In this document: positions 506 through 23,206 of the stretch, piece by piece
How positions within the stretch are numbered: position 1 is the stretch's first letter
How the letters are laid out: each line of letters starts with the position of its first letter
NCBI RefSeq assembly: GCF_002286975.1
Contig: NZ_NSKB01000005.1
Coordinates: forward strand, 434,001-498,000
DNA length: 64,000 nt
Direction of reading: 5' to 3'
Source: Halomonas salipaludis
GTDB taxonomy: Bacteria > Pseudomonadota > Gammaproteobacteria > Pseudomonadales > Halomonadaceae
The notes under the pieces: generated by a model
What the model saw: the letters and a program-made list of their open reading frames with translations, nothing else
Databases searched by the model: none
What the model was told of the DNA's origin: nothing
Made by a program: the position numbers and the translations under genes

Positions 506-545
506 GAGGGCTCCTTGGCGATGATGAAATGCCGCTACGGCCTTG

Positions 546-5799: not shown

Positions 5800-6332
5800 C
5801 AGCGGATCTCGAGTTGCTCGAGCTGCCACACCCAGCGGTAGTCGTAGCGAATATCCTGCAACTCGCTGTGGTCGTCACGCGGGTAGACGATCCACAGCGG
5901 CCCCTTGTCCCGGGGGGTGAGCGTTTCGCCGTCCATGGTGTCGGCCAGTAGTACATCGTAATCGTGAAAATCCTGCATGGGGATGTCGATGATGTAGTCG
6001 TTCAGCGCCGTGGCGACGACTTCATCTCCCTGAGCCCCGACGGCATCGAGCAGGTCGCGCATCAGGACCCCTTCGAAGTGGCTGACGCCGTCAGTGACAA
6101 CGGTTGTCGTATCCAGCGTCTGGCGGGGCAGGCTGGCGAACAGGCTGCGGTCGATGTGCGCCTCCTCGCCAATATTGGGGTGGGCGATATCGCCGCTGAC
6201 GCGGAGTAGAGGTGTCGTGTCGGGCGGCGGGAGTGCGGCGGCTGCGACAGGCAATGCGATGCCTGCCAGCAGCCCAGCGGCACGCAGGCGAAAGGAGACG
6301 GCGGTAATGTCGGAGTCGTCGCACTCTAGCAT
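5799..6332 (-). CDS. Periplasmic protein with oxidoreductase molybdopterin-binding-like fold, no cysteine
   Basis: The product is about 177 residues (start uncertain; the frame is open to 6389). A hydrophobic stretch LRAAGLLAGIALPVAAAALP looks like a signal peptide. The mature part (LLRVSGDI, LLDAVGAQGDEVVATALNDY, GPLWIVYPRD, then WVWQLEQLEI at the end) resembles the small stand-alone relatives of the sulfite-oxidase/YedY molybdopterin domain. The mature part contains no Cys at all, so the Mo-ligating residue of true oxidases is missing and catalysis is unlikely. Gene order in front of a sensor kinase suggests an accessory sensing role. That role is inference. Confidence 0.65.
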   Translation of the reverse strand: MLECDDSDITAVSFRLRAAGLLAGIALPVAAAALPPPDTTPLLRVSGDIAHPNIGEEAHIDRSLFASLPRQTLDTTTVVTDGVSHFEGVLMRDLLDAVGAQGDEVVATALNDYIIDIPMQDFHDYDVLLADTMDGETLTPRDKGPLWIVYPRDDHSELQDIRYDYRWVWQLEQLEIR

Positions 6333-6356
6333 GATGGCCTCATATGGCGATGGGGG

Positions 6357-6369
6357 TATGGTCACCATA
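6357..6369. promoter_or_regulatory. Candidate operator in the divergent region
   Basis: TATGGTCACCATA is a perfect 13-base palindrome about a central C, lying between the two-component operon (minus) and the von Willebrand A cluster (plus). A regulator binding here could serve both directions. No direct evidence. Confidence 0.25.
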
Positions 6370-6490
6370 GCTAATATTGTGAATCTCATCTTCCGGCTAC
6401 GCCTGCGATCTGTCCCCGTCTGAATGAACGGGGGAAGCCTTGATGGTGTGCACTAGGCTTGGGTCACACAAAAACAGCAGGGGAATCAGT

Positions 6491-9400
6491 ATGCGAGTCG
6501 CAGGCCGAGCGGGTGCGGCGCTGCTGGCACTGGTAGTGGCGCAGGGTGTCGATGCCTATCCGCAAATGACGTTCTCACAAGAACCCAACGACACGCCTGA
6601 GCAAGCCCAGTCGGTTAGCGGCGAGGCGAGGCTGGTCGGCGAGGTGTCCGGCGATGATCGTGACCTGTTCTGGTGGGGATTGGATGACAACCACACCGAC
6701 CGGGTGTGGCAGGCCGAACTACAGGGGGATACCGAGGGAGCCATCGAGGCGCGGTTCTCCTGGCCCGCCGAGGAAGAAGCGTCGGCGCCGAGCGGGGTCG
6801 CACAGTTCGGTGAGGCGGAGCCCGAGGAGGCCGCCGCCGAGGAGACACGACTGCTGTCCCTCGAGGCCAGTGCGTCCCAGCCCAGGCAGCGTCTCCAGCA
6901 GCTGATTGTTCCCCCAGGAGAGCACCTTATCAGCTTGCTGCCTCAGGCGGCGGGGGGCGAGTACCAGCTGACCCTGACCGAAGCAGGGCGTTTGCGGGTG
7001 CGTGGCCAAGTGGGGCCCGACGAAGCAGATGACCTGGAGGTGACGCCGGATCGACAGTGGTTCTTCCATCTCGATGTGCCAGAGCACGAGATCCCCCTGC
7101 GGCCGGAGGAGGATGCCGAGGCGTTGCTATGGCGGCTCGATCTGCTGGGTGAGCTGGGCGTGTCGCTGGAAGCCTGGATCGAGAATGACGCCGGTGAGCG
7201 GATTGCCGAGGTACATGCCGATTCACCCGTTCAGCACCACTGGGGGCGGTTGGATCTTACCGGGGACGTTCGCCTGCACCTGCGCAACCCGGAGGGGAGC
7301 GCGATTGGTCGGGTCGGGCTGGCGCTGGTCGAGGATGGTCAACGCCCTGAGCCTGCTGCGGATGAGCAGGACGTCGTCGAGGTCGAGGCCGCGTCGGAAG
7401 AGGAGGCACGGTGGTTCGGGCTTGGCGAGACGGTGTCGCTCGAGCTGGTGCCGCGCGAGCGCCAGTACCTGGCGTTCTCCCTGGATGAGTCGGCGGTGGG
7501 ACAGCGCCTGGATGTGGTAGGCGACACGGACCGCGATATCGAGGTCTGCCTGAGCCAGCGTGATGACCGCGACCCGGTGTGCCGGGATGGGCCAGCCGAG
7601 GCGCTGTTCGACCAGATGCAGCTTGCAGCAGGGGACTACCTGCTGCAGCTACGACTGTCGCGGCGGGCCGATGACCCGATCCCCACCCAGGTGCGGCTGA
7701 TCGAGACGGACTTGCCCGATCGGGAAGGCTGGGTGGCTACCCCCAATGATGATCGCGACTGGGCTGCGGTGCTCAGGGCTGATGAGGTCCGCCAGGGCCG
7801 CTTCGCGGGGACAGACACCGCCTGGTTCGAGCTCCTGGTCAGCGATGAGACGCAGGTCTGGGCGTTCCAGGCCGAAGGCGATCCGATCGAGCGCCTGGCG
7901 CTCTACCATGATGGCGATCGCCGCCCCTTCCTCGACAGTGAGCAGTCCCGGCGTGGTGACCCGCTGCCGCAACGGCGGCTGAGCCCGGTGCGTCTGCTGC
8001 CGGGGCGCTATCAGGTGCGCCTGGAGGGGGATAGCACCGATTATCGTCTCGAGGCCCTGCCCCTGGGAGAGCCTCAGCCGGGCCGCGAGATGGAACCCAA
8101 CGACGAGCCGGAAGATGCTAATCCGCTATGGCTGGGAGAATCCGTCGAGGGGCATTTCCATAGCGAGGATGATGAGGACCACTTCCACTTTCACCTGCCC
8201 GGCGACAACCGCCTGGTGCTGGATTTTGAGCCACCGGCAGACGGGACGCTCGAGGCGCGACTGTTCTGGCAGGGTGACGAGCTGCTGCGCACCCTCGACC
8301 TGGAGGAGGCCACGCGCATCAGTCGGATGCTGCCCCCCGGCGACTATATCCTGCGACTCGTTGGTAATGGTCCCTCGCAGCACCCCTATCGCATCCGGTT
8401 AGGTATTGGTGATCCCTGGCACCATCAGGGTGCAGTGGGGCTACTGGACAATATCGCACAGGCTCCTTTGGTTCCCGGGGACGGGGTTATTGATGAAGAG
8501 ATGGGGGGCGTGGATGATGCCGAGGGCTATCTGCGACTGCCCGTTACCGAGCTGGCTCGCACCCTTCACTTCGAGGCACGAAGCCCTGGGGGGCGTGTCC
8601 GTTTCGTGAATGCCGAGGGTGACGAGCTCGCGTTCGAGGAGACCGACGAGCGGCGTCGCCATGCCGTGACCGTGCCGGGAGGAGAGCAGTGGTACCTCTG
8701 GGCCTCCCTCAGTCGCCGCCTGAGGAACTTGACGTTGGAGGACCCAGCGCAGCCTTTCACGCCGGAGATATCGCCCGTTACCGCTGAGCTGGACAGTGAG
8801 AGCGTTCGCCTCCCGCCCTTCCTGCCCCATGCCCAGCGCCTCGAGGCTCGTCTGACGGTCCGTAATGAGGGAGAGGATTCCCTGATGCTGCCCTTGAAGG
8901 CCCACGCCAGCCATTCGGGCTGGTCGCTTGACGGGCTACCTGAGTCACTCTCCCTGGCCCCCGGGGAGCGTCGTGAAGTACCCCTGACCTGGACGCTGCC
9001 GCCTGAGATGCTGGAGAGCGATCCATCATCGCTCTTCGTGGCGGTGGGCGAGCATACGGCGCACCGTGGCCTGGAGCTGGATCCCTCGGCAGCGGCCCTG
9101 GATCCGCAACCGGCACCCCCTGTCCCCGAGGCCCTCGATGGAATGGTTGACCTGGCCTGGAGTGCCCTGGGGGCGCACTTCGTCGATGCCGATAGCGGCG
9201 AGCCCATCGATGGCCTGCCCCAGCGGCGCGGAGGCTCGGCACGCTTCCTGATTGACGGTATGGCCAGCGCCGCTAGCTCCATCGAGGTCGACGTCGACCC
9301 GGGGGAGGCCTTGCCACCTATCCGCCTGGCCGGTGAAGGAGGCACGGTGCACGGCCTGGGCTTCAATCAGCGCTCTCTGCACGATCACAGCTATCGCTGG

Positions 9401-11887
9401 CAAGCGGTCGAGATCGCGCTGGGTGAGTCCCTGGACGATCTGGACGTGGTCACGAGCGTGACGCTGGACAGCCGCGACGGCGAGCAGTTCTTCGCCTTCG
9501 ATGCGCCGCTGGAGGCTCGCTATGTGCAGTTGCGGCCGCTGTCGATCTTCCTTGCCGAAGGTGAGCGTCGGCGTTCTCGCCATGGCAGTGGCGAGTTGCG
9601 GGTGCTGGGAGAGCCCTCCGGTGCACTGGGGGCGCGTCGTCATGACCTTCTGAATCATGAGCTGGGCGGGCATTGGATCTATACCCTGCCGGATATCGAT
9701 CGCCTCTATGGCTTTCAGGGGCAGCGCTACACCCATCGCAGCGTTACCGGCGGGCGCAGCGTCCGTGGTGGCCAGCGTATTAACGGCGAGCGTATCGAGA
9801 TGGTCTTCGCCTTCCTCCAGCATCGGGCGGCGCGGATCGACGAGCTGCGCTGGATCGAGAACCTCGACTGGGACGGCCTGCCGGTGGAGGAGGTTTCGGT
9901 ATATACCTCCCTTGAGTCACCGGTGGGGCCCTGGGAGCACCAGGCCGATTGGGCGCTGGCACGTGACGGCGAGGGAGCGGCGAGTCTTTCGCTCGCCGAG
10001 ACGCCGCGGGCACGCTACCTGCGTCTGGCCTTCGACGAGCCTGACATACCGGAAGGCGAGCGTCGGGCCAGCTGGCGTATCCCCGAGGTGCTGCAGGCCA
10101 TCGAGGCCGATGCCCTGGGCAGCGGCCGCTCGATTCTCGGTCACTGGGGGCTGGATAGCCCCCGCGGCCTGCTGGAAGCGGAGCAGGAGAGGGCCCAGGT
10201 GCAGGTGCGTGAGGTCGAGGATGCCGATAGCCATACTGAGGCGCCCTACGCGCTGACGGATGGCGTGGTGGGGCGAGTCGTGGAACCGGGGGATACTCGC
10301 CACTATGCCCTGACCCTCGACGCGCCGGATAACACCCTGGCGTTTGAACTGGAAGAGCCGGCACGCGATCGGCTGCGCGCCACCCTGCATGACCCGCAGG
10401 GCGACGTCGTGCCCCTCGACTGGTCATCGGCCGGTGCCGGCCGGCGACACGCCGAGGCGGTGGATATTCCGCAAGGCGAGTATCGCCTGACGGTGACCGA
10501 GCCGCCGCGCTCCATCGTCTTCCTGTGGGATGGCAGCGGTAGTCTGTCCAGTCACCAGCCGGCGATCTATCAGGCGCTGAACCGCTTCGCCGAGGGGCTG
10601 GAGCCCGACAAGGAAGTGTTCAACATGCTGCCTCTGGGCGGGCCCCTGCTGATCGATGGCTGGGCCACACAGCCTGCTCAGGTGGCCCAGACCCTGGCTG
10701 CCTATGATGGTGATTTCACCAGCTCGAACTCGGAACCGGCGCTGGCCCTGGCCAGCCGAGCGCTGGCACAGCGCGAGGGGCAACGGGCGATCTTCCTGAT
10801 CACCGACGCCGAGCAGACCGGGCGCGACCTGGCGGCCTGGGAGTCACTGGCTGAGGTTCGACCGCGGATCTTCAGCCTGGAGGCCACCCATGGCTCACGC
10901 AAGGACACTGAAGAGAACCGCTGGTACCAGAATCAGATGCTGAGCTGGGCCCAGGTGGCCGATGGACGCTATCGCTATACCGTCGACCGTACCGACCTGA
11001 TTCGCGGATTCGAGGCGGGGATGCGTGAGCTGCGCCAGCCCAGCGAGTTCGAACTGTCGATAGCGCGGCGCTACCAGGAGCCACCCGAGCCTGGCAGCCT
11101 GCGGGTGGTCAGCACCGACCCCGAACAGCCGGCGGTGGCCGGCGGCGTGGTGCACCTGATCTTCGACGCCTCGGGCTCGATGCTGCGCCAGATGCAGGGC
11201 GGGCGGCGCATCGAGGTGGCCCGGCGCATCGTCCAGCAGACCCTCGACGAGCGCATCCCCGCGGAGGTTCCGGTGGCCCTGCGCGCTTACGGGCATACCG
11301 AACCCCACAGCTGCGAGACCGAGCTGCTGGTGTCGCCCAGTGCTGGCAATCATGACGCGGTGCGCGACGTCATGGCGGACATCCAGGCCATCAACCTGGC
11401 GCGTACACCGTTGGCCGACTCCCTGGATGCGGTACTCGACGACCTCGACGGCTACCAGGACCAGCCGCGCCTGGTGGTGATGCTCACCGACGGCGAGGAG
11501 ACCTGCGACGGCGACGTGGCCGCGTCTGTCGATAGCCTGATCGAGGAGGGGGTCGACGTGCGCCTGAATATCGTCGGCTTCCATATCGATGAGATCGGCC
11601 TGCAGGCCGAGTTCGAGCGCTTCGCCACCCGTGGCGGCGGAGAGTACTTCGACAGCCACGACGGCGACGAGCTGATGGCCGGGCTGAACCAGGCGCTGGC
11701 CGCCACCTGGCGGGTGCAGGACGGCGAAGGCGACGAGGTCGCCAGAGGGCGGGTGGGTGATGCCCCCGTCGAGCTGGGCGTTGGCGAGTACGAGCTGGTG
11801 GTGGAAACCCAGGCGGGTGAGCAGCGCAGGGCCTTCGCCATCGGGGCGAATCAGAGCAAGACACTGGAGGTGGGAAGTGACGACTAG
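6491..11887 (+). CDS. Giant exported protein with two von Willebrand A domains, PPC-like and discoidin-like modules
   Basis: The product has 1798 residues. The start MRVAGRAGAALLALVVAQ has AGGGGAA just upstream and gives a clean signal peptide ending near VDA; an in-frame ATG 51 bases earlier gives a poor one. Two PPC-like (pre-peptidase C-terminal) units begin at EPNDTPEQAQ (about residue 31) and EPNDEPEDAN (about 535). Two F5/8-type-C-like regions lie around residues 940-1210. The first vWA domain has DGSGS at 1347 and ITDAEQTG; the second has DASGS at 1559 and LTDGEETCDG, so both keep a MIDAS-type metal site. The protein is highly acidic, as expected for an exported halophile protein. It is the first of seven same-strand genes; the next gene overlaps its stop. 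Adhesion or assembly scaffolding in the periplasm is a guess. Confidence 0.85.
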   Translation: MRVAGRAGAALLALVVAQGVDAYPQMTFSQEPNDTPEQAQSVSGEARLVGEVSGDDRDLFWWGLDDNHTDRVWQAELQGDTEGAIEARFSWPAEEEASAPSGVAQFGEAEPEEAAAEETRLLSLEASASQPRQRLQQLIVPPGEHLISLLPQAAGGEYQLTLTEAGRLRVRGQVGPDEADDLEVTPDRQWFFHLDVPEHEIPLRPEEDAEALLWRLDLLGELGVSLEAWIENDAGERIAEVHADSPVQHHWGRLDLTGDVRLHLRNPEGSAIGRVGLALVEDGQRPEPAADEQDVVEVEAASEEEARWFGLGETVSLELVPRERQYLAFSLDESAVGQRLDVVGDTDRDIEVCLSQRDDRDPVCRDGPAEALFDQMQLAAGDYLLQLRLSRRADDPIPTQVRLIETDLPDREGWVATPNDDRDWAAVLRADEVRQGRFAGTDTAWFELLVSDETQVWAFQAEGDPIERLALYHDGDRRPFLDSEQSRRGDPLPQRRLSPVRLLPGRYQVRLEGDSTDYRLEALPLGEPQPGREMEPNDEPEDANPLWLGESVEGHFHSEDDEDHFHFHLPGDNRLVLDFEPPADGTLEARLFWQGDELLRTLDLEEATRISRMLPPGDYILRLVGNGPSQHPYRIRLGIGDPWHHQGAVGLLDNIAQAPLVPGDGVIDEEMGGVDDAEGYLRLPVTELARTLHFEARSPGGRVRFVNAEGDELAFEETDERRRHAVTVPGGEQWYLWASLSRRLRNLTLEDPAQPFTPEISPVTAELDSESVRLPPFLPHAQRLEARLTVRNEGEDSLMLPLKAHASHSGWSLDGLPESLSLAPGERREVPLTWTLPPEMLESDPSSLFVAVGEHTAHRGLELDPSAAALDPQPAPPVPEALDGMVDLAWSALGAHFVDADSGEPIDGLPQRRGGSARFLIDGMASAASSIEVDVDPGEALPPIRLAGEGGTVHGLGFNQRSLHDHSYRWQAVEIALGESLDDLDVVTSVTLDSRDGEQFFAFDAPLEARYVQLRPLSIFLAEGERRRSRHGSGELRVLGEPSGALGARRHDLLNHELGGHWIYTLPDIDRLYGFQGQRYTHRSVTGGRSVRGGQRINGERIEMVFAFLQHRAARIDELRWIENLDWDGLPVEEVSVYTSLESPVGPWEHQADWALARDGEGAASLSLAETPRARYLRLAFDEPDIPEGERRASWRIPEVLQAIEADALGSGRSILGHWGLDSPRGLLEAEQERAQVQVREVEDADSHTEAPYALTDGVVGRVVEPGDTRHYALTLDAPDNTLAFELEEPARDRLRATLHDPQGDVVPLDWSSAGAGRRHAEAVDIPQGEYRLTVTEPPRSIVFLWDGSGSLSSHQPAIYQALNRFAEGLEPDKEVFNMLPLGGPLLIDGWATQPAQVAQTLAAYDGDFTSSNSEPALALASRALAQREGQRAIFLITDAEQTGRDLAAWESLAEVRPRIFSLEATHGSRKDTEENRWYQNQMLSWAQVADGRYRYTVDRTDLIRGFEAGMRELRQPSEFELSIARRYQEPPEPGSLRVVSTDPEQPAVAGGVVHLIFDASGSMLRQMQGGRRIEVARRIVQQTLDERIPAEVPVALRAYGHTEPHSCETELLVSPSAGNHDAVRDVMADIQAINLARTPLADSLDAVLDDLDGYQDQPRLVVMLTDGEETCDGDVAASVDSLIEEGVDVRLNIVGFHIDEIGLQAEFERFATRGGGEYFDSHDGDELMAGLNQALAATWRVQDGEGDEVARGRVGDAPVELGVGEYELVVETQAGEQRRAFAIGANQSKTLEVGSDD

Positions 11888-14294
11888 GTTGGGCTTGCTG
11901 GGAGTATTGCTGGCGCTGGCGCCGATGGCCTCGGCAGAAATGATGTGTGCAGGTTCGCCCGGCATGAGCGAGAGCGATCAGCGCTATCTCGAGCAGCGGG
12001 TGCTGAGCCTTGACCGCGCCGTGCGCGGCGCCTACCAAGAGCTGCCCTGGGAGAGCCTCAGGGTGAGCGATGCTCAGCAAACGGTGGGGAACCACCCCGA
12101 TGCGCTCTTTGCCTGGGTGCGCGACGAGACCCGCTGGCTGCCCTATGACGGAGAACTGCGCGGAGCGGCCGGGGTGATGCAGGATCGCATGGGCTCCAGC
12201 CTGGATCGTGCCCTGCTGCTGGCGGCGCTGATGGAGGAGGCCGGTCACAGCGTGCGCCTGGCCCGGACCGAGCTACCCACGCAGGCACTCGAACGGCTCG
12301 AGTCGGCCTGGTCCCATGAGCCGGTGGCCCGGCGGCCAGACGGCCCCGTCGAGATGGACCTCTCCAGTGCCTCTGTCGCGGCACTGGCCGAGCGGCTCGA
12401 GAGCGACCCCGGAGAGCTGGCCGAATCGTTGCATGAGCAGCGGGCGTCGGCCGACGCACGGCAGACACGGCTGCAGGTCGACGGCCGACGCCAGGCCGAG
12501 GCGCTGACGGCGTTGCTGGATGGCTCCCTGGCAGCCGCCGACGCTTCGCAGGCTGTCCCGGCGGATCACTGGTGGGTGCAGCGACGCACCGACGACGGCT
12601 GGTCGGACTACGATCCGGCCCTCCCTGGGCATTCCGAGGGAGATCGTCTGATTGAGGCGGGCGACGTCGAGCGTCACTACCCTGAGGCGCTTCCCGAGGA
12701 TGCACGCCACTGGCTGACCATCGAAGTGGTGGCCGAGCAGCTCGAGGGCGATCGGCTAAACGAGGCGGTGGCCTTCGCGCATCGGATGCCTGCCGCTGAG
12801 CTGCTGGGGCGGCAGCTGCACCTGGAGCTCTACCCTATGGAGCTGCCGTCGCCCCAGTCGCTGCTCGACGGAAGCGTCGATCTCGATGCCCTGCCGCAGG
12901 CCCTGTTTGATCAGGAGCAGTGGGTACCTTACCTGCGCCTGGGCGACAGCCTTGAGCGCCAGGACGCCATCATGGCCGATGGCAGCGTGGTCGAGCTTGG
13001 CTCGGATGCCTCCATTGCCGGTGCCTTCGGCGAGGCCGGCAGTGCCCTGGGCGAGGTGAGCGTCGGCGGTTTGAGCGCCGGAGCAGCGGACACCCCGCCG
13101 GAGCTGACTGCGGTGATGGCGCGTTTCCACACCGAGGCGCCGGGCCGCGAGACAGATACCGTCGAACGTCCGGTGATGGATCTGATCGGTCCCGCACGGC
13201 GCAGCGCGGGTGTCGAGACCTTCGACGTCGACGATGCGCTCCGTGAGCAGCGCGCGGTCGAGTTGTTGAGCACCCTGGAGGTGCTCGGCCAGACGACCTG
13301 GGTGCAGCCGGCCCAGCTGGCCGCCTGGCACTACGAGGGGCTGATGGACAATCGCCAGGCGGCCCTGGCCGGGACCTACCTCGGCGCCCAGGGCGATGAC
13401 AGCTTTATCGGCGAAGCCCTGGAATCGCGCAGCACCCGTCGCTTGGTGCTGGATCAGCTCGCCGCCATGCGACTGGCCTACAGCCCCTATCCCGAGCGAG
13501 TCGCGCTGACGCGACTCAATCTGCTGGGCTACGTGACGCTGATGGAGTTCGAGGCGGGCGAGCACCGGCGCCGCGAGGGCTTCGACATCCTCGACAATCG
13601 CGTCGCAGTGCCCGACGGCGAGGCGGTGGCGGAGACACGAATCGCTCAGGGGGCGCTGGACACCCTGCTGGAGGCCGAGCTAGCGGTGGAGACGCGCGCT
13701 GCCCTGGGCAACACCGCCCGGGCCTTCCTGCATGACCTCGACGAGGGAACCGAGTGGCGGCACGTCGCGAGCCTGGACGGCCTGGTGGCCCTCGACTGGC
13801 AGCCGGATCCCGACCTCGAGGCGCACCTCGCAGCACGTCTGGACGAGGGGCAGGCACTGCTTCTGCCCGACGCGCCGGCACGCGATGATGCGCCGACCTG
13901 GTGGCAGCTCGATCCCGCCACCGGCGACCTGCTGGGCTACGGGAGAGATCGCCGCGGTCAGTTCGTCGAGGGGATCCTGACCCTGATGAGTGCCGGCGAT
14001 AACGCCATGGGCGCGGTGGGCATGGTGCAGAGCATCTGGGACTGCCTGTTTACCGCCAGCGATCCGCTGTGCTGCACCCAGGACGCCGCCGCTCAGGAGA
14101 TGATCAGCAGCGCCGTCAGCGCCGGCCTGGGCGGTCTCGCCGAGGCCCATGACATCAATATCGTCATTGGACGCGAGCTGGTGTCCGGGGGCGCCTTCGA
14201 CCGGCTCAACTCGGCGGGCATCAGCCAGGCGGCCGGCGACGTGGCCGACGCCGGATCCGAATTTATCGTCGATTCCTGGGGCCGCTGCAACTGA
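11877..14294 (+). CDS. Exported transglutaminase-like protein, nucleophile position apparently Ser
   Basis: The protein has 805 residues from a GTG start at 11877 that overlaps the preceding stop by 11 bases; AGGTGGGA lies just upstream and TTRLGLLGVLLALAPMASA is a signal peptide. The region FAWVRDETRWLPYDGELRG, then DRMGSSLDRALLLAALMEEA, then DHWWVQRRTDDGWSDYDPAL follows the order of a transglutaminase-like core (nucleophile helix, His strand, Asp-Pro strand). Where active members have Cys, this protein has Ser (SSLDRALLLAAL). The C-terminal half is unrecognised; near the end are DCLFTASDPLCC and a small-residue-rich tail. It is coupled to the vWA gene and probably works with it. The loss of the catalytic Cys is an alignment by eye. 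Confidence 0.7.
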   Translation: MTTRLGLLGVLLALAPMASAEMMCAGSPGMSESDQRYLEQRVLSLDRAVRGAYQELPWESLRVSDAQQTVGNHPDALFAWVRDETRWLPYDGELRGAAGVMQDRMGSSLDRALLLAALMEEAGHSVRLARTELPTQALERLESAWSHEPVARRPDGPVEMDLSSASVAALAERLESDPGELAESLHEQRASADARQTRLQVDGRRQAEALTALLDGSLAAADASQAVPADHWWVQRRTDDGWSDYDPALPGHSEGDRLIEAGDVERHYPEALPEDARHWLTIEVVAEQLEGDRLNEAVAFAHRMPAAELLGRQLHLELYPMELPSPQSLLDGSVDLDALPQALFDQEQWVPYLRLGDSLERQDAIMADGSVVELGSDASIAGAFGEAGSALGEVSVGGLSAGAADTPPELTAVMARFHTEAPGRETDTVERPVMDLIGPARRSAGVETFDVDDALREQRAVELLSTLEVLGQTTWVQPAQLAAWHYEGLMDNRQAALAGTYLGAQGDDSFIGEALESRSTRRLVLDQLAAMRLAYSPYPERVALTRLNLLGYVTLMEFEAGEHRRREGFDILDNRVAVPDGEAVAETRIAQGALDTLLEAELAVETRAALGNTARAFLHDLDEGTEWRHVASLDGLVALDWQPDPDLEAHLAARLDEGQALLLPDAPARDDAPTWWQLDPATGDLLGYGRDRRGQFVEGILTLMSAGDNAMGAVGMVQSIWDCLFTASDPLCCTQDAAAQEMISSAVSAGLGGLAEAHDINIVIGRELVSGGAFDRLNSAGISQAAGDVADAGSEFIVDSWGRCN

Positions 14295-14304
14295 GGAGAT
14301 GCCA

Positions 14305-15717
14305 ATGAATCAGCCACACACGCGTAAGGCCGCACTAGGCATGGCGGGGCTGCTGGCCTTGCTCGGCCTGGGTGCAGCGACGCCGGCGGCGGCCCAATCG
14401 CCCTGCGCCGAGGTGGTTCGGGAGGGGCTACCCGCCCTGGGGTGCAACCGTGCCTTCACCCTGCACGTCAAGGACATGGCCTTCAGCGACGAGCTGAACG
14501 GCCAGGCACCGCCGCCCGGGCAGCGCTGGGCCACACTGGACGTACGTTTCGACAGCTGGATGCCCAGCGACCTGGTGTTCGGCCTGGGGTATCCCGAGCC
14601 ATTGCTGGTGGCCTCGCTGGAGCGCCAGCTTTACCTGCTGGTGGATGACCGGCAGGTGGTGCGGCCGACCCTGCCGGACGGTTCGGCCCTGGAGGATGAG
14701 TTCGTGCTGCCGCGGGCGGGGGCCCAGCGCCAGGGGGAGGTCGCGTTTGCCGTGCCCGACGCATCACTGTCGCAGCTGTCGCTGCACTACTACCACGACC
14801 AGTACGCGCCTATCGTGGTGCCGCTGCTGGGTGGGCGTGCCGAGCCCGATGAGGGACGCGACGCCGCGAGTTGGCAGCAGGGTCATGATCTCATGTCACT
14901 GGGCGTTCACGGCGTCGGCCGTCATGACCGCTGGCAGGGTGAGGCGTCTCCCGAGGGGATGCAGTGGCTGGTGGTGGACCTGCGCGGCCAAGGAGAGTGG
15001 CGCACGCCGGTGGACGCCCGGGCGCTGGAAGCGTCGGCCGAGCCCGATGTCGAGTCATCTCTGCACCGGGTGATGGAGTATATTGAGGCGCCGGGACTGC
15101 TGCAGGTGGTGGTGGACGGTCGCTACGCCTATGTGCGTGACCTCGAGCTTAGCAGCCTGGGCGATGATCCGGCGCTGCTGCCCGATGCCTGGGCCGGCGG
15201 TGAGGCGGTATTCCCGATACCCGATGACGCCGAGCGCATCGAACTGGTGGCCTATATGCCCCAGTTTGGCGGTACCGATATCTCCTCCGAGATTCGTCCG
15301 GCGCTGCGCTTTGCGCTGGAGGAGGGCGAGCGCGAGCCGGATGCTGAACCGCGAGAGATGCTAGAAGACGGCCCGATCCGCTTCCGGGTCCATGACCTGG
15401 TGCTGCATGACGCTTTCGCCGATCACGTCGCCGAGGAGGGGGAGACGCTGGTCTGGATCGAAGCGGCCATGGCCAACCAGAGCGAGGTCGGCGGCATGAT
15501 GGAAGTGGGTCATCGCCTTCGCCCGCGTGTGCCAGAGGGAGAGCTGCTGGGAGTCTACCAGGCCGGCCCCATGCCGCAGCCGGAACCCTTCTGGCTGCCG
15601 GCCGACGATGAGCCGCGTCACTTCCAGCTGCTCTATCGCTATCCCGCGGACGCCGAGACGCTCGAGTTCGAGTATGGCGGCGTCGCCGTCGTCGAAACGC
15701 TGTCGCTGTCCCACTGA
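14305..15717 (+). CDS. Exported protein of unknown function
   Basis: The protein has 470 residues. GAGGAG sits 6 bases before the chosen ATG, and MNQPHTRKAALGMAGLLALL begins a signal peptide ending near PAAA|QSP. The mature protein begins with CAEVVREGLPALGCNRAF, whose two Cys could form a disulfide. It appears to contain repeated beta-rich units: ALGCNRAFTLHVKDMAFSDE near the start and GPIRFRVHDLVLHDAFADHV near residue 355 look like two copies of the same unit, each followed by a WxxxD/E segment. I recognise no family. It lies 10 bases after the transglutaminase-like gene and 20 before the WD40-like gene, so it belongs to the same operon. Confidence 0.75.
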   Translation: MNQPHTRKAALGMAGLLALLGLGAATPAAAQSPCAEVVREGLPALGCNRAFTLHVKDMAFSDELNGQAPPPGQRWATLDVRFDSWMPSDLVFGLGYPEPLLVASLERQLYLLVDDRQVVRPTLPDGSALEDEFVLPRAGAQRQGEVAFAVPDASLSQLSLHYYHDQYAPIVVPLLGGRAEPDEGRDAASWQQGHDLMSLGVHGVGRHDRWQGEASPEGMQWLVVDLRGQGEWRTPVDARALEASAEPDVESSLHRVMEYIEAPGLLQVVVDGRYAYVRDLELSSLGDDPALLPDAWAGGEAVFPIPDDAERIELVAYMPQFGGTDISSEIRPALRFALEEGEREPDAEPREMLEDGPIRFRVHDLVLHDAFADHVAEEGETLVWIEAAMANQSEVGGMMEVGHRLRPRVPEGELLGVYQAGPMPQPEPFWLPADDEPRHFQLLYRYPADAETLEFEYGGVAVVETLSLSH

Positions 15718-15737
15718 GCGGAATCTACGGAGGGGTG

Positions 15738-16817
15738 ATGACCAGCCTGTTCTTCACCGGTGTGATCGCTCTGTGGAGCGTCCAGCGACAGGGGGGGCGC
15801 TATGCCATTGCCCTCTGCCTGGCGGTGAGCGTCTCGTCGGCCTGGGCACAAGACAGTGGCTCGCCGGACTGGTCGGCCGCCGACATGCAGCATGAGCTTG
15901 AGCTGGAGGCGAGCGTCACCCAACTGGCGTTCTCTCCCGACGGGGCGCTTCTGGCCAGTGCCACCGAGTTCTCCCTCAAGGTGTGGGACCTGGCGTCCGG
16001 CACGCTCAAGCACCGGTTGGATGGCCATCGCTCCCCGGAGGTGGACCGCGCGTTGCCCGTCACCGGGCTGGCTTTCAGTCCCGATGGCAGTCTCCTGGCG
16101 AGTACCAGCTGGAACCCCGGCGTAATGCCCGATGCCTCGCTCAAGCTCTGGGACCCGGCAACGGGTGAACCGCGCCAGGCCCTGGCGGGTGGCCAGGGGT
16201 GTCGGGAAGTCGCTTTCTCGGCCACGGGTGACAGCGTATGGGCGGCCTGCGGCTGCGACGTGCAGCGCTACTCGCTGGAGACGGGCGATGTGGCTGAACG
16301 CGCCGAGCATTTCCCCGGTGGGCTGCTACCCCAGGGTGACGCTGAGGCGGCGGCCGCTGAGCTGCCGATGCCCAGGCAGGGCCCCGCCGCCGCGCTCGCC
16401 TTGAGTGAGGAAGGCATGCGACTGGCCTGGGCCGGCCAGCCGCCCACCTACCCCATGCCGATTCTGCGTGTCTGGCAGGCCGAGACAGCCGCCGAGGTGG
16501 ACTATCTCGCCCTCGACCTTCCCGGCGTGACCACCACGCATGACCCCGTGGCCCTGGCCCGGGAGCACTATAGCCTGGAGCTGCCCAATCCGGTGACCGA
16601 GGAGCGTATCGAGCAGTGGATGCGGGACTCGGGGGAGGTGCGCGTCATGCTCACCCTGAACAATCTGAAGGACGATGCCTCTCGGGCGTGGCGCTATCGG
16701 CTGACCTTCGAGCCGCTGGAGGATGGCCGCTGGGAGCTGGTCCGGGTGGAGCGCAAGCACCAGTGCCGGCGTGGGCCCACCGCGCCGGATGAGTGGACGA
16801 CTCGGCCCTGTGTCTAG
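15738..16817 (+). CDS. Exported WD40-like repeat protein
   Basis: The product has 359 residues with a GGAGGGG ribosome-binding site. The N terminus has a long n-region and then a hydrophobic stretch YAIALCLAVSVSSAWA followed by Q, a plausible signal cleavage site. Two clear WD-type repeats follow (TQLAFSPDGALLASAT..LKVWDLASG and TGLAFSPDGSLLASTS..LKLWDPATG), then a weaker one (REVAFSATGDSVWAAC) and LALSEEGMRLAWAG. This is fewer blades than a full seven-blade propeller. The last 110 residues are not WD40-like (ALAREHYSLELPNPVTEERI onward) and end with two Cys. It is probably a protein-protein interaction partner in the cluster. Last gene before a strong hairpin. Confidence 0.75.
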   Translation: MTSLFFTGVIALWSVQRQGGRYAIALCLAVSVSSAWAQDSGSPDWSAADMQHELELEASVTQLAFSPDGALLASATEFSLKVWDLASGTLKHRLDGHRSPEVDRALPVTGLAFSPDGSLLASTSWNPGVMPDASLKLWDPATGEPRQALAGGQGCREVAFSATGDSVWAACGCDVQRYSLETGDVAERAEHFPGGLLPQGDAEAAAAELPMPRQGPAAALALSEEGMRLAWAGQPPTYPMPILRVWQAETAAEVDYLALDLPGVTTTHDPVALAREHYSLELPNPVTEERIEQWMRDSGEVRVMLTLNNLKDDASRAWRYRLTFEPLEDGRWELVRVERKHQCRRGPTAPDEWTTRPCV

Positions 16818-16842
16818 TGGCCATGGCGGAACCCTGCCGGGA

Positions 16843-16884
16843 CGACCCCGTGGCCCCGTTCGTATGAAGGGGGCCACGGGGTCG
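16843..16884 (+). terminator. Strong hairpin, likely terminator or attenuator within the vWA cluster
   Basis: A perfect 15-bp stem, CGACCCCGTGGCCCC (16843-16857) with GGGGCCACGGGGTCG (16870-16884), encloses a 12-base loop. No long T run follows, so read-through to the next gene, or a role in mRNA stability, is possible. Confidence 0.55.
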
Positions 16885-16938
16885 ATGCCCGTCTAGTCTG
16901 TCGGTACCTGATGATCTGCTCATACGATAGGGGGACCC

Positions 16939-17928
16939 ATGTGGGACTTTCGGATCGGTCAGTCTCTGGGGCTGATGGCCAAGACGCTACCTTTTATCTT
17001 ATTTCGGCTGGCCGTCTATTTCGGCGTGGCGCTGGCCTATGTGTTGATGACCGGCGTTGGCGCCGGGGTTGGCTGGGGCATCGGTGGCTTCGGCGATGAG
17101 GGCTTTCGTGCCGCCAGCACCTTCTGGGGCGGCGTCGCCGGCTTCGGCATCATCGGTGTCGTCATGTACGTACTGCGTGAGTACCTGCTCTACATGGTCA
17201 AGGCTGGGCATATTGCCGTGCTGGTGGAACTGCTCGACGGCCAGTCGCTGCCCCAGGGGCGTAGCCAGATCCAGCATGCCACGGCATCGGTCAAGGAACG
17301 CTTTGGCCAGGCCAGCGCCCTGTTCGCCGTGGACCAATTGATCAAGGGGGTGCTGCGTGTCCTCACCGGCCTGGTGCGAGGCATTTTCGGCTTGCTGCCG
17401 ATTCCCGGCGCACGTCAGTTCCTGCGGCTGCTGCAGATGTTCCTGCGCATCGCGGTGGGCTTCATCGACGAGGTGATCCTCGCCTATAGCTTTCGCACCC
17501 GGGCCGACAATCCCTGGGGAGCGTCTCGGGACGGTCTGGTGCTGTACGGCCAGAACCTCAAGCCGATGTTCAAGAATGCCGCCTGGCTGGCGCTGATCGT
17601 CTACGGGCTCTCCTTCGTCATCTTCCTGATCATGTTGGCTCCGGCGGCCCTGGTGGCCTATCTGATTCCCGGCGGCTGGTCGGCGACGGGAGTGGTAGTG
17701 GCGCTGCTGTTCGCCTGGAGCGTCAAGGTGGCGGTGCTCGAGCCCTTCGCCATCACCTGCATGATGCAGGCCTACTTCAAGACCATCGAGGGGCAGACCC
17801 CCGACCCCGAGTGGGAAGCCAAGCTGGATGGCCTCTCTGCCAAATTCCGCACGCTCAAGGGCAAGGCCAGCGAGGCGGGCGCGGCAGGCCACGGCAGCGA
17901 AACGCAAGGGGCGCAGCCCTCACGTTGA
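16939..17928 (+). CDS. Polytopic inner-membrane protein of unknown function
   Basis: The protein has 329 residues and an AGGGGGA ribosome-binding site. Hydrophobic segments lie near 16-45, 65-82, 125-150, 210-235 and 240-265, so about five to six membrane helices are expected. Glycine-rich stretches (GVGAGVGWGIGG) occur in the second. Conserved-looking soluble loops include AGHIAVLVELLDGQSLPQGR and AYSFRTRADNPWGASRDGL. The last 45 residues are hydrophilic and probably cytoplasmic. I do not recognise a transporter signature. It is the only integral membrane protein of the vWA cluster, so it could link the exported proteins to the cell interior; this is inference. Confidence 0.75.
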   Translation: MWDFRIGQSLGLMAKTLPFILFRLAVYFGVALAYVLMTGVGAGVGWGIGGFGDEGFRAASTFWGGVAGFGIIGVVMYVLREYLLYMVKAGHIAVLVELLDGQSLPQGRSQIQHATASVKERFGQASALFAVDQLIKGVLRVLTGLVRGIFGLLPIPGARQFLRLLQMFLRIAVGFIDEVILAYSFRTRADNPWGASRDGLVLYGQNLKPMFKNAAWLALIVYGLSFVIFLIMLAPAALVAYLIPGGWSATGVVVALLFAWSVKVAVLEPFAITCMMQAYFKTIEGQTPDPEWEAKLDGLSAKFRTLKGKASEAGAAGHGSETQGAQPSR

Positions 17929-17989
17929 GCGCTGCCGAGTAGGCTGTCAGCAAGCTAATAACAAGTCGGTAATAGGGAGTGAAACGGAC

Positions 17990-18982
17990 ATGACCCATGG
18001 GAGCAATAGCGCATGGCGGGTAGGCGTGCTCGTAGCCAGTCTGGGCTTATTGGCAGGGTGTGATGACGCTGCCAATGACCAGCAGGCGGAGGATGAAACC
18101 GGCACCTCGGGTGCTGACAGCGGCGAGCTGGCAGACTTGCTGGAGAGCGTTGAGAGCGGTGAGTCGACGCTGTCTATCAGCGGTGCTGTCACCTCCACGG
18201 GCGAATACACCACGGCGGATGACCCACGCTACGGCGGAGTCAGCAACGATGTCTTTCGGCCCGCCCGGGGGGGCGGTTCTTCCCGCAGTGGCAGCAATGC
18301 CGACGGGCCCTACGCCATTTCAATCTATACCGATGCCACTCACGAGGATGATCCCGACAATGTCGTACGCGCCTGGGTCACGCTGGTGTTGCCGCAAGGC
18401 GCCGAGGCGGGTAACCGCTATCAGGTGGCCGGCTTTTCCGATGCCGATGACGACCAGGTCCAGGCCCATGTCCGCGGTGACGGCATGGCCTGGACCTTCT
18501 CGCGTCAGGTCTCGGGCAGCGTTTATCTGGGCGAGCACTCTGATCGGGTCGGTGCCGCCTGGCAGCTGGAGGCCGCCGACGGGCGTGGCGAGGACGCAAG
18601 CCGGGTGGCAAGCGAGGGGGCGGTCAAGGATCTGCCGCTGACGCTGCAGTCCGAGGTGGAGTATGAGCTGACCGTCAATGGGGAAACCGAGTCCAGGTTG
18701 GCCCGTGTCACCAGCCGCGGCAGCATGCTGAACATTGGCCACGGGGTCTATCTCTACCTGCCGTCGGGCGCAACAGCGGGAAGTTATCCGGTCCAGGCAG
18801 GTCGCGATGATGACAGCGTGCGGGCTCAGTTCACTCGGCATGACGTCGATGAGGTCGACGGGGAGTTGACGTTGGCGGCCAACGGCGAGCGTTTCGACGC
18901 CGAGTTCAGCATCGATGCCAGCGGCGAGGATGATGTGCACCTGGCGGGTAACCTGCGCTGGTTCGCGCTGGAAGATGAATAA
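17990..18982 (+). CDS. Lipoprotein of unknown function
   Basis: The protein has 330 residues. MTHGSNSAWRVGVLVASLGL leads to the lipobox LLAG|C, so it should be lipid-anchored after cleavage. An acidic linker (DDAANDQQAEDETGTSGADS) follows. Two halves look alike: SISGAVTSTGEYTTADD.. GPYAISIYTDA and LTVNGETESRLARVTSRGSM, each ending in a pattern of the type V-LP-GA-AG-RYQVAG / YLPSGATAGSYPVQAG. This suggests an internal duplication of a beta-sandwich unit. Asp2 after the Cys would, by the E. coli rule, favour inner-membrane retention. It lies 61 bases after the membrane-protein gene. Confidence 0.8.
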   Translation: MTHGSNSAWRVGVLVASLGLLAGCDDAANDQQAEDETGTSGADSGELADLLESVESGESTLSISGAVTSTGEYTTADDPRYGGVSNDVFRPARGGGSSRSGSNADGPYAISIYTDATHEDDPDNVVRAWVTLVLPQGAEAGNRYQVAGFSDADDDQVQAHVRGDGMAWTFSRQVSGSVYLGEHSDRVGAAWQLEAADGRGEDASRVASEGAVKDLPLTLQSEVEYELTVNGETESRLARVTSRGSMLNIGHGVYLYLPSGATAGSYPVQAGRDDDSVRAQFTRHDVDEVDGELTLAANGERFDAEFSIDASGEDDVHLAGNLRWFALEDE

Positions 18983-19038
18983 CCCAGTGACCTGCTCGGT
19001 TGCTGCGTTGAAATGCCACATGAATGAGGAAAGCGACC

Positions 19039-19668
19039 ATGGATAACAAACGCACGCTTGGTATTGCGCTCTTGGGGAGTCTTCTGACGCTGCCGGCCAC
19101 CGCGACGGCGCTGGCCGATGAGGTGGTCGAGCAGATCGAACTGGGCCTCGATCTCTATCAGGAAGAGGACTATGGTGGCGCCATCGCCGAGCTGGAATTC
19201 GCTATCAACGATATCCGCAGCCTGGTATCCGGCCGCATCGCCGAGACCTTTCCCGAGCCCCCGTCGGGCTGGAGCGCCGAACAGGCCCAGTCAGCCGGAG
19301 GCGGTGGGGCAGCCGCCTTGCTGGGTGGCGGTGGGGCCATGCTCGAGCGCCAGTATCGCCAGGAGGGCGGTGACGGCCAGATGGAAGCGACACTGATGGT
19401 CGACAATCCCATGGTTCAGGGCATGGCGGCGATGTTCAATAATCCGGCACTGATTGCAGCCCAACCCGAGCTTGAGCGGGAGCGCATGGGGCGTGAGACG
19501 GCCATCGTCAAGTGGGAAGCTGATCGCTCCCGGGCCGAGGTCTCCCTGCTGTTGGATAGCCGCATCCTGATGCAGGTGACCGGGCAGAACCTGGACTCTC
19601 CGGACGTGGCGGTAGAGCTGCTGCGTGACTGGGACCTCGACGCTGTGCGGGAGCAGGCTGCACGCTGA
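19039..19668 (+). CDS. Small exported protein with a tetratricopeptide-like N terminus
   Basis: The protein has 209 residues. I start at MDNKRTLGIALLGSLLTLPA, with GAGGAAAG upstream, rather than at the ATG 15 bases earlier, because this gives a standard signal peptide (cleavage near ALA|DEV). The mature N terminus IELGLDLYQEEDYGGAIAEL reads like one TPR helix pair. A glycine-rich hinge (SAGGGGAAALLGGGG) follows, then a Met-rich segment (MVDNPMVQGMAAMFNNPAL). The C terminus is a beta-rich stretch. I recognise no enzyme motif. It closes the seven-gene same-strand run before a hairpin at 19716. Confidence 0.75.
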   Translation: MDNKRTLGIALLGSLLTLPATATALADEVVEQIELGLDLYQEEDYGGAIAELEFAINDIRSLVSGRIAETFPEPPSGWSAEQAQSAGGGGAAALLGGGGAMLERQYRQEGGDGQMEATLMVDNPMVQGMAAMFNNPALIAAQPELERERMGRETAIVKWEADRSRAEVSLLLDSRILMQVTGQNLDSPDVAVELLRDWDLDAVREQAAR

Positions 19669-19715
19669 GGTCTGTCGAGCGCTCGACACGATACGACGCA
19701 ACGAACCGCACATTA

Positions 19716-19735
19716 CGCCGGGGGCATCCCCGGCG
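19716..19735 (+). terminator. Candidate terminator after the vWA cluster
   Basis: CGCCGGGG and CCCCGGCG pair around a GCAT loop 47 bases after the stop codon. The following bases are not T-rich, so it would be a weak intrinsic terminator. Confidence 0.4.
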
Positions 19736-19964
19736 ATTCCTGCCTTCTGCAGTACAAGTCCCGCATATGATCAACGTTATTCAACGAACTTGCTCGAGGA
19801 AATGCGCTCTGAGGGGTAACGGGTCGCGTCGGGACGACTAGCGTTGAATCGGCGGCGTCCGGTATCCAACCAGCGCCGCCTAATTCTGTCTACGCTGATA
19901 GAGTCACCTCGCCCGGCAAGAGGTTCGACGCCGCCGCCGAGGGTCCGCGCTTAAGGAGGCTTCG
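19736..19964 (+). other. Leader region of the prkA operon
   Basis: There is no gene here. GGCGGCG (19851-19857) can pair with CGCCGCC (19874-19880), which is followed by taattct. TTAAGGAGG just before 19965 is a near-perfect ribosome-binding site. I could not identify a sigma-54 or sigma-70 promoter with confidence. Confidence 0.4.
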
Positions 19965-21887
19965 ATGAGCATCTTCGATCATGTGCAGAACCGCTACGAA
20001 CGTGTTCAGCAGGAAGAGATCAGCCTGCAGGAATATCTGGAACTGTGTCGCAGCGAGCCCACCGCTTACGCCACCGCCGCCGAGCGGATGCTGGTGGCCA
20101 TCGGCGAGCCCGAGGTGATCGATACCGCCAAGGACTCCCGTCTATCGCGGATTTTCTCCAACAAGGTGATTCGCCGCTATCCGGCGTTCTCCGAGTTCTA
20201 CGGCATGGAGGAGGCGATCGAGCAGATCGTCGCCTACTTCCGCCATGCTGCCCAGGGCCTCGAGGAGCGCAAGCAGATTCTCTACCTGCTGGGCCCGGTG
20301 GGTGGCGGCAAGTCGTCGCTGGCCGAGCGCCTCAAGCTGCTGATGGAGCGGGTACCGTTCTATGCCATCAAGGGCTCGCCGGTGTTCGAATCGCCGCTGG
20401 GACTGTTCTCTCCCGAGGAGGATGGCGAGCTGCTCGAGAAAGAGTACGGCATCCCGCGGCGCTACCTGAAGAGCGTGATGTCGCCCTGGGCGGCCAAGCG
20501 GCTCAAGGAGTACGGCGGGGATATCTCGCAGTTCAAGGTGGTCAGGCTCTATCCGTCGCGGCTCAACCAGATCGCCATCTCCAAGACCGAGCCCGGCGAC
20601 GAGAACAACCAGGACATCTCCTCGCTGGTGGGCAAGGTGGATATCCGCCAGCTCGAGCTCTACTCCCAGGACGATCCGGACGCCTACAGCTTCTCCGGCG
20701 GCCTGTGCAAGTCCAACCAGGGGCTGATGGAGTTCATCGAGATGTTCAAGGCACCGATCAAGGTGCTGCATCCGCTGCTGACCGCCACCCAGGAGGGCAA
20801 CTACAACCCCACCGAGGGCATGGGCGCGATTCCCTTCGACGGCGTGGTGCTGGCTCACTCCAACGAGAGCGAGTGGCAGGCGTTCCGCAACAACCGCAAC
20901 AACGAGGCCTTCCTCGACCGCGTCTACATCGTCAAGGTGCCCTACTGCCTGCGCGTCACCGAAGAGATCAACATCTACAAGAAGTTGCTCGAGCACTCGT
21001 CGTTGGCCGAAGCGCCCTGCGCTCCCGATACCCTGCGCATGCTGGCGCAGTTCTCGGTACTCTCGCGGCTCAAGGAGCCGGAAAACTCCAGCGTCTACTC
21101 CAAGATGCGCGTCTACGATGGCGAAAACCTCAAGGATACCGACCCCAAGGCCAAGTCGATCCAGGAGTATCGCGACTCGGCAGGCGTCGACGAGGGCATG
21201 GACGGGCTCTCCACGCGCTTCGCCTTCAAGATCCTCTCCAAGGTGTTCAACTTCGACAACCACGAGATCGCCGCCAACCCGGTGCACCTGCTCTACGTGC
21301 TGGAGCAGCGCCTCGAACAGGAGCAGCTGCCCAAGGAGGCCCACGAGCGCTACCTGCGCTATATCAAGGAGTACCTGGCACCGCGCTACGTCGACTTCAT
21401 CGGCAAGGAGATCCAGACGGCGTATCTGGAGTCCTACTCCGAGTATGGCCAGAACATCTTCGATCGCTACGTGACCTACGCCGACTTCTGGATCCAGGAT
21501 CAGGAGTATCGCGACCCCGAGACCGGCGAGCTGTTCAATCGCCAGTCGCTCAACGAAGAACTGGAGAAGATCGAGAAGCCGGCGGGCATCTCCAACCCCA
21601 AGGATTTCCGCCACGAGGTGGTCAACTTCGTGCTGCGCGCGCGGGCCCAGAACAACGGCATGAATCCCAGCTGGCAGTCCTACGAGAAGCTGCGCGGGGT
21701 AATCGAGCACAAGATGTTCGCCAACACCGAGGAGCTGCTGCCAGTGATCTCCTTCAATGCCAAGGCATCACAGGCGGATCAGCGCAAGCATGAGGACTTC
21801 GTGGCCCGCATGGTAGACCGCGGCTATACCGAGAAGCAGGTGCGCCTGCTCTCCGAGTGGTATCTGCGGGTTCGCAAGTCGCAGTAG
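19965..21887 (+). CDS. prkA: PrkA family serine protein kinase (YeaG)
   Basis: The protein has 640 residues, the usual PrkA length. An AAA-type N-terminal domain has Walker A GPVGGGKSS at 110-118. The family signatures FYAIKGSPVFESPLGLFSPE and the region around NPTEGMGAIPFDGVVLAHSN are present, and the C-terminal PrkA kinase-like part runs from about 390 to the end. It is cytoplasmic. In enterobacteria YeaG acts with YeaH in nutrient-stress responses. It leads a three-gene operon with YeaH (15 bases on) and SpoVR (23 bases further). Identification is secure; the client proteins are not known. Confidence 0.95.
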   Translation: MSIFDHVQNRYERVQQEEISLQEYLELCRSEPTAYATAAERMLVAIGEPEVIDTAKDSRLSRIFSNKVIRRYPAFSEFYGMEEAIEQIVAYFRHAAQGLEERKQILYLLGPVGGGKSSLAERLKLLMERVPFYAIKGSPVFESPLGLFSPEEDGELLEKEYGIPRRYLKSVMSPWAAKRLKEYGGDISQFKVVRLYPSRLNQIAISKTEPGDENNQDISSLVGKVDIRQLELYSQDDPDAYSFSGGLCKSNQGLMEFIEMFKAPIKVLHPLLTATQEGNYNPTEGMGAIPFDGVVLAHSNESEWQAFRNNRNNEAFLDRVYIVKVPYCLRVTEEINIYKKLLEHSSLAEAPCAPDTLRMLAQFSVLSRLKEPENSSVYSKMRVYDGENLKDTDPKAKSIQEYRDSAGVDEGMDGLSTRFAFKILSKVFNFDNHEIAANPVHLLYVLEQRLEQEQLPKEAHERYLRYIKEYLAPRYVDFIGKEIQTAYLESYSEYGQNIFDRYVTYADFWIQDQEYRDPETGELFNRQSLNEELEKIEKPAGISNPKDFRHEVVNFVLRARAQNNGMNPSWQSYEKLRGVIEHKMFANTEELLPVISFNAKASQADQRKHEDFVARMVDRGYTEKQVRLLSEWYLRVRKSQ

Positions 21888-21902
21888 GCCGAGGAGGTCG
21901 CC

Positions 21903-23183: not shown

Positions 23184-23206
23184 CGGCACCCCGGGGAGGA
23201 GATTGC

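Follow-up and report, generated by a model that had tools for sequence, protein, structure and literature searches.

A sensor operon and seven envelope genes around a giant two-vWA protein as a probable regulated unit in Halomonas salipaludis

We analysed 64,000 nucleotides of the Halomonas salipaludis genome (contig NZ_NSKB01000005.1; G000:C29:434001-498000 of a 5.48-Mb genome), referred to below as the window, in which positions 2808-19770 hold ten genes: a three-gene sensor operon and seven genes for envelope proteins, one of them a giant exported protein with two von Willebrand factor type A (vWA) domains. The features of this locus, in window coordinates, are:

2808-19770, no strand: presence/absence block, absent from G004, a genome of the same genus (blastn, G004:C1:433000-452999 vs. 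the window)
2948-4027, minus strand: response regulator of 359 amino acids with REC and LuxR-type helix-turn-helix domains (Pfam Response_reg 2.4e-25, GerE 4e-10)
4024-5829, minus strand: membrane sensor histidine kinase of 601 amino acids with a PAS domain and two hydrophobic segments (Pfam HATPase_c 2.5e-26, HisKA 2.1e-10)
5799-6389, minus strand: small, probably exported molybdopterin-fold (PF00174) protein (Pfam Oxidored_molyb 9.4e-9)
6491-11887, plus strand: giant exported protein of 1798 amino acids, with PPC-like and discoidin-like modules and two C-terminal vWA domains (Pfam, homologue alignment)
11877-14294, plus strand: exported transglutaminase-like protein (TG), 805 amino acids from GTG 11877, without the catalytic cysteine
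14299-15717, plus strand: "2unit", an exported protein with two, possibly three, beta-type repeats (internal profile comparison)
15735-16817, plus strand: exported WD40-type protein, a dispensable accessory (Pfam WD40 1.9e-14; missing in G002 and G003)
16939-17928, plus strand: polytopic membrane protein, "TM" (hydropathy, profile searches)
17990-18982, plus strand: lipoprotein, an accessory (lipobox LLAGC, read directly)
19024-19668, plus strand: small exported protein of 214 amino acids (hydrophobic signal-like N-terminus)

A preliminary description of this DNA had reported seven same-strand genes, and all seven open reading frames (ORFs) were found on the plus strand as listed. Its statement that the first four overlap or lie within 20 bases of each other was also borne out: the vWA stop codon (TAG, 11885-11887) overlaps the likely TG start by 11 bases, 2unit begins 4 bases past the TG stop, and WD40 begins 17 bases past 2unit. 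The gaps after the WD40, TM, and lipoprotein genes are 121, 61, and 41 bases, respectively. The last three products were likewise correctly recognized as a polytopic membrane protein (six or seven hydrophobic segments in TM), a lipoprotein, and a small exported protein. The sensor operon (2948-6389), which comprises the molybdopterin-fold protein, the PAS histidine kinase, and the LuxR-type response regulator, is divergent from these seven genes. A promoter and terminator scan found no promoters, and fewer terminators than in shuffled sequences.

The complete block is missing from G004, in which window position 2807 is joined to 19771 with 4 extra bases (blastn); the 16,963 bases that are gone correspond to the sensor operon plus the seven envelope genes, i.e., ten genes in ~17 kb. 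The G004 alignment spans window positions 1-550, 701-2807, and 19771-22549, positions 551-700 being a further small difference, and no inverted repeat was found within the two block edge regions. The best match to the sensor kinase in G004 is 35% identical, over the kinase domain. Four Franzmannia genomes carry the block: the window genome, G001 (Franzmannia pantelleriensis strain AAP), G002, and G003 (Halomonas sp. ML-15). Nucleotide identity to the window in prkA, which adjoins the block downstream, is 97.1% in G004, 95.2% in G002, 93.1% in G001, and 91.1% in G003; because G004 is the nearest genus-mate by this gene and the other three carry the block, its loss in G004 is a simpler explanation than repeated gain. 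Gene order in the three other carriers is that of the window, apart from the missing WD40 (G002 and G003) and lipoprotein (G003) genes.

A second line of evidence is the linkage between TM and the sensor operon. TM is the most widespread part of the locus after the common domain types, and a search with its profile detected it in 9 of the 151 Halomonadaceae genomes sampled; in all nine, close orthologues of the molybdopterin-fold protein, histidine kinase, and response regulator occur at the same locus, ~0.2 to 10.6 kb away. A close sensor orthologue is thus present in 9/9 TM-carrying genomes vs. 2/142 others (Fisher p=6e-13, a test that ignores shared ancestry and that used a 55% orthologue line set after the list had been viewed). 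Molybdopterin-fold matches of >=55% identity occur in 11 of the 151 genomes, and distant ones (E<=1e-5) in 116. G439 and G525 have the sensor operon without TM, with the small exported protein kept beside the operon, and in G827, which belongs to another family, TM adjoins the response regulator, histidine kinase, and molybdopterin-fold genes. Molybdopterin oxidoreductases carry a metal-binding cysteine; in all seven readable homologues of the molybdopterin-fold protein, cysteine is confined to the leader or absent, leaving the mature domain with none, and the protein is a probable sensor accessory.

The idea that the sensor operon is a mere neighbour is ruled out by the joint absence in G004 together with the linkage to TM. 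The preliminary description had set a seven-gene unit beside a two-component operon that was merely divergent from it: the divergence stands, and the same two observations place the operon inside the unit. Its suggestion that the exported and membrane proteins behave as a set fits the loss in G004, and we consider it very probable that all ten genes form one unit, which we read as a single regulated envelope locus. TM had seemed genus-specific from the class sample (2/369 genomes, its own included); this was overturned by the wider profile searches, which gave the 9/151 above, 12 of 398 phylum-sample genomes (its own included), and 87 plasmid records. Two TM genes appear to be broken: one is split over two frames (G687:C9:137770-138712), and in a second copy in G827 (L107 5968-6911) the last part is in another frame.

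Outside Franzmannia, Thioalkalivibrio denitrificans has a group of four of these genes, with identities of 53% (TM), 47% (vWA), 44% (TG), and 50% (2unit); there, TM lies upstream of the vWA-TG-2unit set rather than downstream. With the order kept in three genus-mates and four genes together in another genus, the arrangement is beyond chance. The giant vWA protein is also paired with TG. Matches spanning the discoidin-like part and both vWA parts were found in 10 genomes or records from seven lineages: the four Franzmannia carriers, T. denitrificans, G032, G355, G360, G922, and a plasmid of Indioceanicola profundi (in the last case by tblastn, covering 94% of a 932-residue query). In all ten, a TG homologue is on the same strand, adjacent or <=3.1 kb away; the order is vWA-TG in Franzmannia, T. 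denitrificans, and G032, and TG-vWA in G355, G360, G922, and Indioceanicola. Five of these lineages were found via vWA, and T. denitrificans and G922 via TG. Overall, 23 of the 369 class-sample genomes have a vWA match, its own included, and eight of the 22 others were fetched, G355 and G360 among them; in the fetched DNA of G058, G216, G223, G283, G206, and G258, whose vWA match misses the discoidin part, no TG match was found.

Two genes are less firmly attached. WD40 is present in two of the four Franzmannia carriers and the lipoprotein gene in three, G003 keeping a 29-residue remnant of the latter, and both genes are dispensable; a lipoprotein copy of 51% identity is present in G035. The small exported protein, often retained beside the sensor operon in relatives, occurs in all four Franzmannia carriers, G035, G439, G525, and G533, and as a 40-residue remnant in G530. 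Among the loci tested for it, 2unit was found only in the Franzmannia carriers and T. denitrificans. Its two-unit character, proposed earlier, was confirmed: repeats 1 and 2 are alike by profile comparison (probability 94.9%), and a third repeat is merely suggested (E=6e-4 vs. repeat 1, unsupported vs. repeat 2). Its structure model is poor (mean predicted local distance difference test [pLDDT] score 50.6), and searches of PDB sequences with the TM and 2unit profiles found no match. The WD40 assignment holds, with the Pfam match restricted to the N-terminal part of the protein (window 15735-16817), which is seemingly too short for a full propeller, and the C-terminal part left unassigned. Pfam has no match at E<=1 for 2unit, TM, the lipoprotein, and the small protein, and for these four, conclusions of absence drawn from profiles are therefore weaker.

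These differences allow the block to be viewed as an accessory island whose envelope genes are only loosely related, share no joint function, and are held together by chance and common regulation: WD40 and the lipoprotein come and go, and TM, the sensor operon, and the vWA-TG pair are each found without the others. We judge this unlikely, in view of four genes having stayed together even in a distant genus, where TM has shifted to the other side, and of vWA and TG being paired in seven lineages and both gene orders. The preliminary description had grouped seven genes and named scattering in other genomes as the observation that would count against a unit. The genes are in fact unequally tied: vWA with TG, these two with 2unit and TM, and TM with the sensor operon in Halomonadaceae are not scattered, whereas WD40 is, and the lipoprotein in part.

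The two vWA domains of the giant protein were identified by Pfam, and both bear a metal-ion-dependent adhesion site (MIDAS), as had been described. The vWA2 motif DxSxS/T/D is complete in 9/9 aligned homologues; in vWA1, DxSxS and D are kept in all nine, with Ser replacing Thr in eight. The discoidin-like module had been proposed from the window protein, in which it is weak (F5_F8 E=0.18), and gains from clear matches at the corresponding place in relatives (E=1.8e-13 in L071, 1.3e-6 in L124, and 1.2e-4 in L070); the relative at L013 has a Sad1_UNC match (3e-5). The PPC-like modules fared less well. No Pfam match was found in the window protein and those of relatives are weak (E=0.0011 in L071 and 0.026 in L070), so this assignment is at the level of motifs only.

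TG had been called transglutaminase-like, which is a weak assignment made from weak profile matches and a model with a fair core. Transglut_core matches the window protein at E=0.012, under the Pfam cut-off, and passes the cut-off in one of six proteins scanned (L070, 24.4 vs. 23 bits; the window protein, L013, L071, L124, and L137 are under it). In the TG model, positions 121-160 and 251-320 have pLDDT values of 72-91 per ten residues, against an overall mean of 49.7; Foldseek found no match at E<=0.001 with it, the top hit being at E=0.018 and transglutaminase 2 ranking seventh. Among PDB sequences, the TG profile best matches dynein regulatory complex subunit 7 (9fqr, E=0.031), which has a transglutaminase-like region; this protein is eukaryotic and has Cys where the TG profile shows Ser, and at most a shared fold is indicated. 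The catalytic Cys position is Ser, Ala, or Leu in all ten aligned TG homologues and never Cys, and a further copy from Indioceanicola, outside that alignment, reads GNAAD at this place. His is kept in seven of the ten and Asp in seven, G922, G941, and G032 having neither. Judged by these residues, TG probably has no enzymatic activity.

Peptide cross-linking by an active transglutaminase, one of the functions first proposed, is compatible with the fold and with the seven homologues that keep His and Asp, and is very improbable because the catalytic Cys is replaced in 10/10. A Lap-like release, in which TG would cut the giant vWA protein free, is equally improbable. LapG is a periplasmic transglutaminase-like protease that acts on large adhesins, and its type of activity requires a C-H-D triad (PMC13090378); LapG/LapD adhesin control, as described there, resembles our locus in that a protein of very large size is accompanied by a transglutaminase-like fold. 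The present TG differs in lacking the catalytic Cys, with His and Asp both lost in 3/10 homologues, and Pfam revealed neither a LapD-like nor a type I secretion protein in the block; for these reasons, the locus is not a Lap system.

The TG profile matches 5 of the 151 Halomonadaceae genomes (the four Franzmannia carriers and G032) and 10 of 47 genomes in the order of T. denitrificans. The latter were considered as further copies of the system, and of the nine other than T. denitrificans only G922 has a giant vWA protein: the G930 match is weak, that of G941 is on a contig of 3,989 bases, a neighbourhood too short to judge, and those of G936, G938, G943, G944, G951, and G952 mainly cover ~70 residues and belong to another set of three genes. 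That set (L126-L131, in G943, G944, G938, G936, G951, and G952) is itself distinct and conserved, with proteins of ~900-930 and 1207-1211 amino acids beside a transglutaminase-like-core protein of ~880-1044 amino acids; several are clipped by contig ends.

TM is also found on plasmids, in 87 of 72,556 records (tblastn), 62 of them from Pseudosulfitobacter, and is annotated as "hypothetical" in every case among the matches listed. We inspected 11 plasmid TM loci, picked for variety from those matches; note that the Roseibium and Labrenzia loci are near-copies. Genes for the molybdopterin-fold protein, histidine kinase, and response regulator are present in seven of the 11 (the Qingshengfaniella kinase is annotated as "ATP-binding protein"), and in six an annotated VWA gene directly follows TM. 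These plasmid vWA proteins are similar, at up to 58% identity, to a 667-residue vWA protein of G531, and align with the giant protein of the window only over its second vWA domain; a smaller vWA protein thus often takes the giant's place. A protein family of ~168-190 amino acids is common to G533 (Halomonadaceae), T. denitrificans, and several plasmid loci. As a plain tally, the recorded source is marine, saline, or alkaline for nine of the 11, "sediment" for one (a haloarchaeon), and not given for one. On a plasmid of the haloarchaeon Natrononativus, a distant TM relative (L145 8770-9762; 35% identity, covering 69% of the query) lies beside a histidine kinase gene. In Roseinatronobacter, a large operon member of 1247 amino acids (L139 13496-17239) matches a bacterial immunoglobulin (Ig)-like domain and, weakly, a matrixin-type metalloprotease; it has homologues in Qingshengfaniella and Martelella, the latter short, and L140 1204-3486 belongs to the same family.

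The proteobacterial dedicated sortase system (NCBIfam TIGR03785 histidine kinase, TIGR03787 response regulator, TIGR03789 PdsO) shares a two-component system and exported proteins with this locus and has a vWA-type target protein; one related locus, L088 (G035), also carries an OmpA-type gene. Here the regulator differs in bearing a LuxR-type helix-turn-helix, and scores are far below the cut-offs: 90 bits vs. 612 for the kinase, 68 vs. 336 for the regulator, and 51 vs. 152 (PdsO) for the L088 OmpA protein. No sortase profile match was found among the ten block proteins in Pfam and NCBIfam (for the kinase and regulator, among the best 25 NCBIfam matches). By these profile scores, the sensor pair and the G035 OmpA-type neighbour are placed outside the sortase system.

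Bat operons, too, have vWA proteins, and they combine these with Ig-like BatD and transglutaminase partners, through which a likeness to the present locus arises. The main rival explanation is a Bat-like periplasmic chaperone or assembly machine, in which vWA domains, Ig-like repeats, and the transglutaminase fold would hold clients while the envelope is assembled, under stress control; we regard it as rather doubtful. The vWA proteins of Bat-type operons adjoin a MoxR ATPase (PMC5700661), and the vWA domains of MoxR-vWA pairs are proposed to capture substrate peptides (PMC7159879); in addition, one of the plasmid vWA relatives matches the BatA profile weakly (19 bits vs. a cut-off of 380). 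However, no MoxR AAA+ or DUF58 match was found among the ten block proteins (Pfam), and the locus is therefore not a Bat operon itself; the next AAA+ gene nearby is prkA, which remains in G004 without the block. BatA/BatB-type vWA proteins are membrane-anchored, whereas the giant protein has no segment above the hydropathy threshold for membrane segments and no NCBIfam BatA match. The MoxR-vWA ternary conflict systems have a vWA component with variable partners, rarely a transglutaminase-like peptidase domain, and centre on MoxR AAA+ (PMC7159879); the block differs in that no MoxR match was found and its proteins are exported. A name for the system was not found in the literature searched, whose coverage lacks most subscription papers, in line with the preliminary description.

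Our preferred explanation, held tentatively, is a sensor-controlled envelope complex anchored in the inner membrane, with ligands bound by its vWA domains and its dead transglutaminase fold. A signal in the periplasm would be sensed by the molybdopterin-fold protein together with the histidine kinase, and the operon would be switched by the LuxR-type regulator; TM would anchor the complex. The giant vWA protein, or the small vWA protein at other loci, would bind its ligand via metal-dependent vWA sites, the giant also through its discoidin-like module, and the dead transglutaminase fold may be a binding partner or substrate-recognition subunit. WD40, the lipoprotein, and the small protein would be exchangeable accessories. 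In saline habitats, the likeliest purpose would be conditional adhesion or binding to matrix or envelope; this is suggested by the MIDAS and discoidin modules, as well as by four of the 11 plasmid loci, at which TM has Ig-like or polysaccharide genes beside it.

Several observations weigh against this explanation, in addition to the limits of the Fisher test. Two of the four loci with Ig-like or polysaccharide genes are near-copies, and four of the 11 plasmid loci lack the sensor genes. No molybdopterin-fold match was found in T. denitrificans, which has the core; the sensor is therefore not obligatory. TM stands alone, without other module matches nearby, in nine of ten fetched phylum-sample genomes (the exception being G827; G687 was unfetched) and in G193, and must have a role outside this gene set too. 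In the block, Pfam revealed neither an adhesin anchor nor a secretion partner nor a beta-barrel, though it has no match at all for four of the proteins, and the giant protein could stay periplasmic.

We read Franzmannia as carrying an elaborate form of a locus type in which sensor and TM recur and the exported vWA machinery changes. Somewhat more speculative than the proposed complex is its possible extension to a modular, plasmid-borne envelope system of saline-habitat proteobacteria, unnamed so far, in which the molybdopterin-fold sensor operon and TM would recruit interchangeable exported vWA machines, the giant vWA and dead-TG pair being the most elaborate. If so, TM, with its 87 plasmid records, would be a marker of a regulated envelope system, the recurrent Cys-less transglutaminase-like family would gain a partner and a testable role, the sensor would offer a handle on the inducing signal, and one locus type would be seen to exchange a protein with a single vWA domain for a giant with two.

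Two other origins were considered and rejected: a PADLOC scan of the seven proteins for defence systems gave a single weak match (TM, E=0.0017), and a PHROGs scan for phage proteins of six of the seven (WD40 left out) also gave one (2unit, E=0.00055, function unknown). Downstream, within window positions 19965-24763, prkA (Pfam AAA_PrkA 5e-183) is followed by two ORFs that are presumably yeaH and spoVR.

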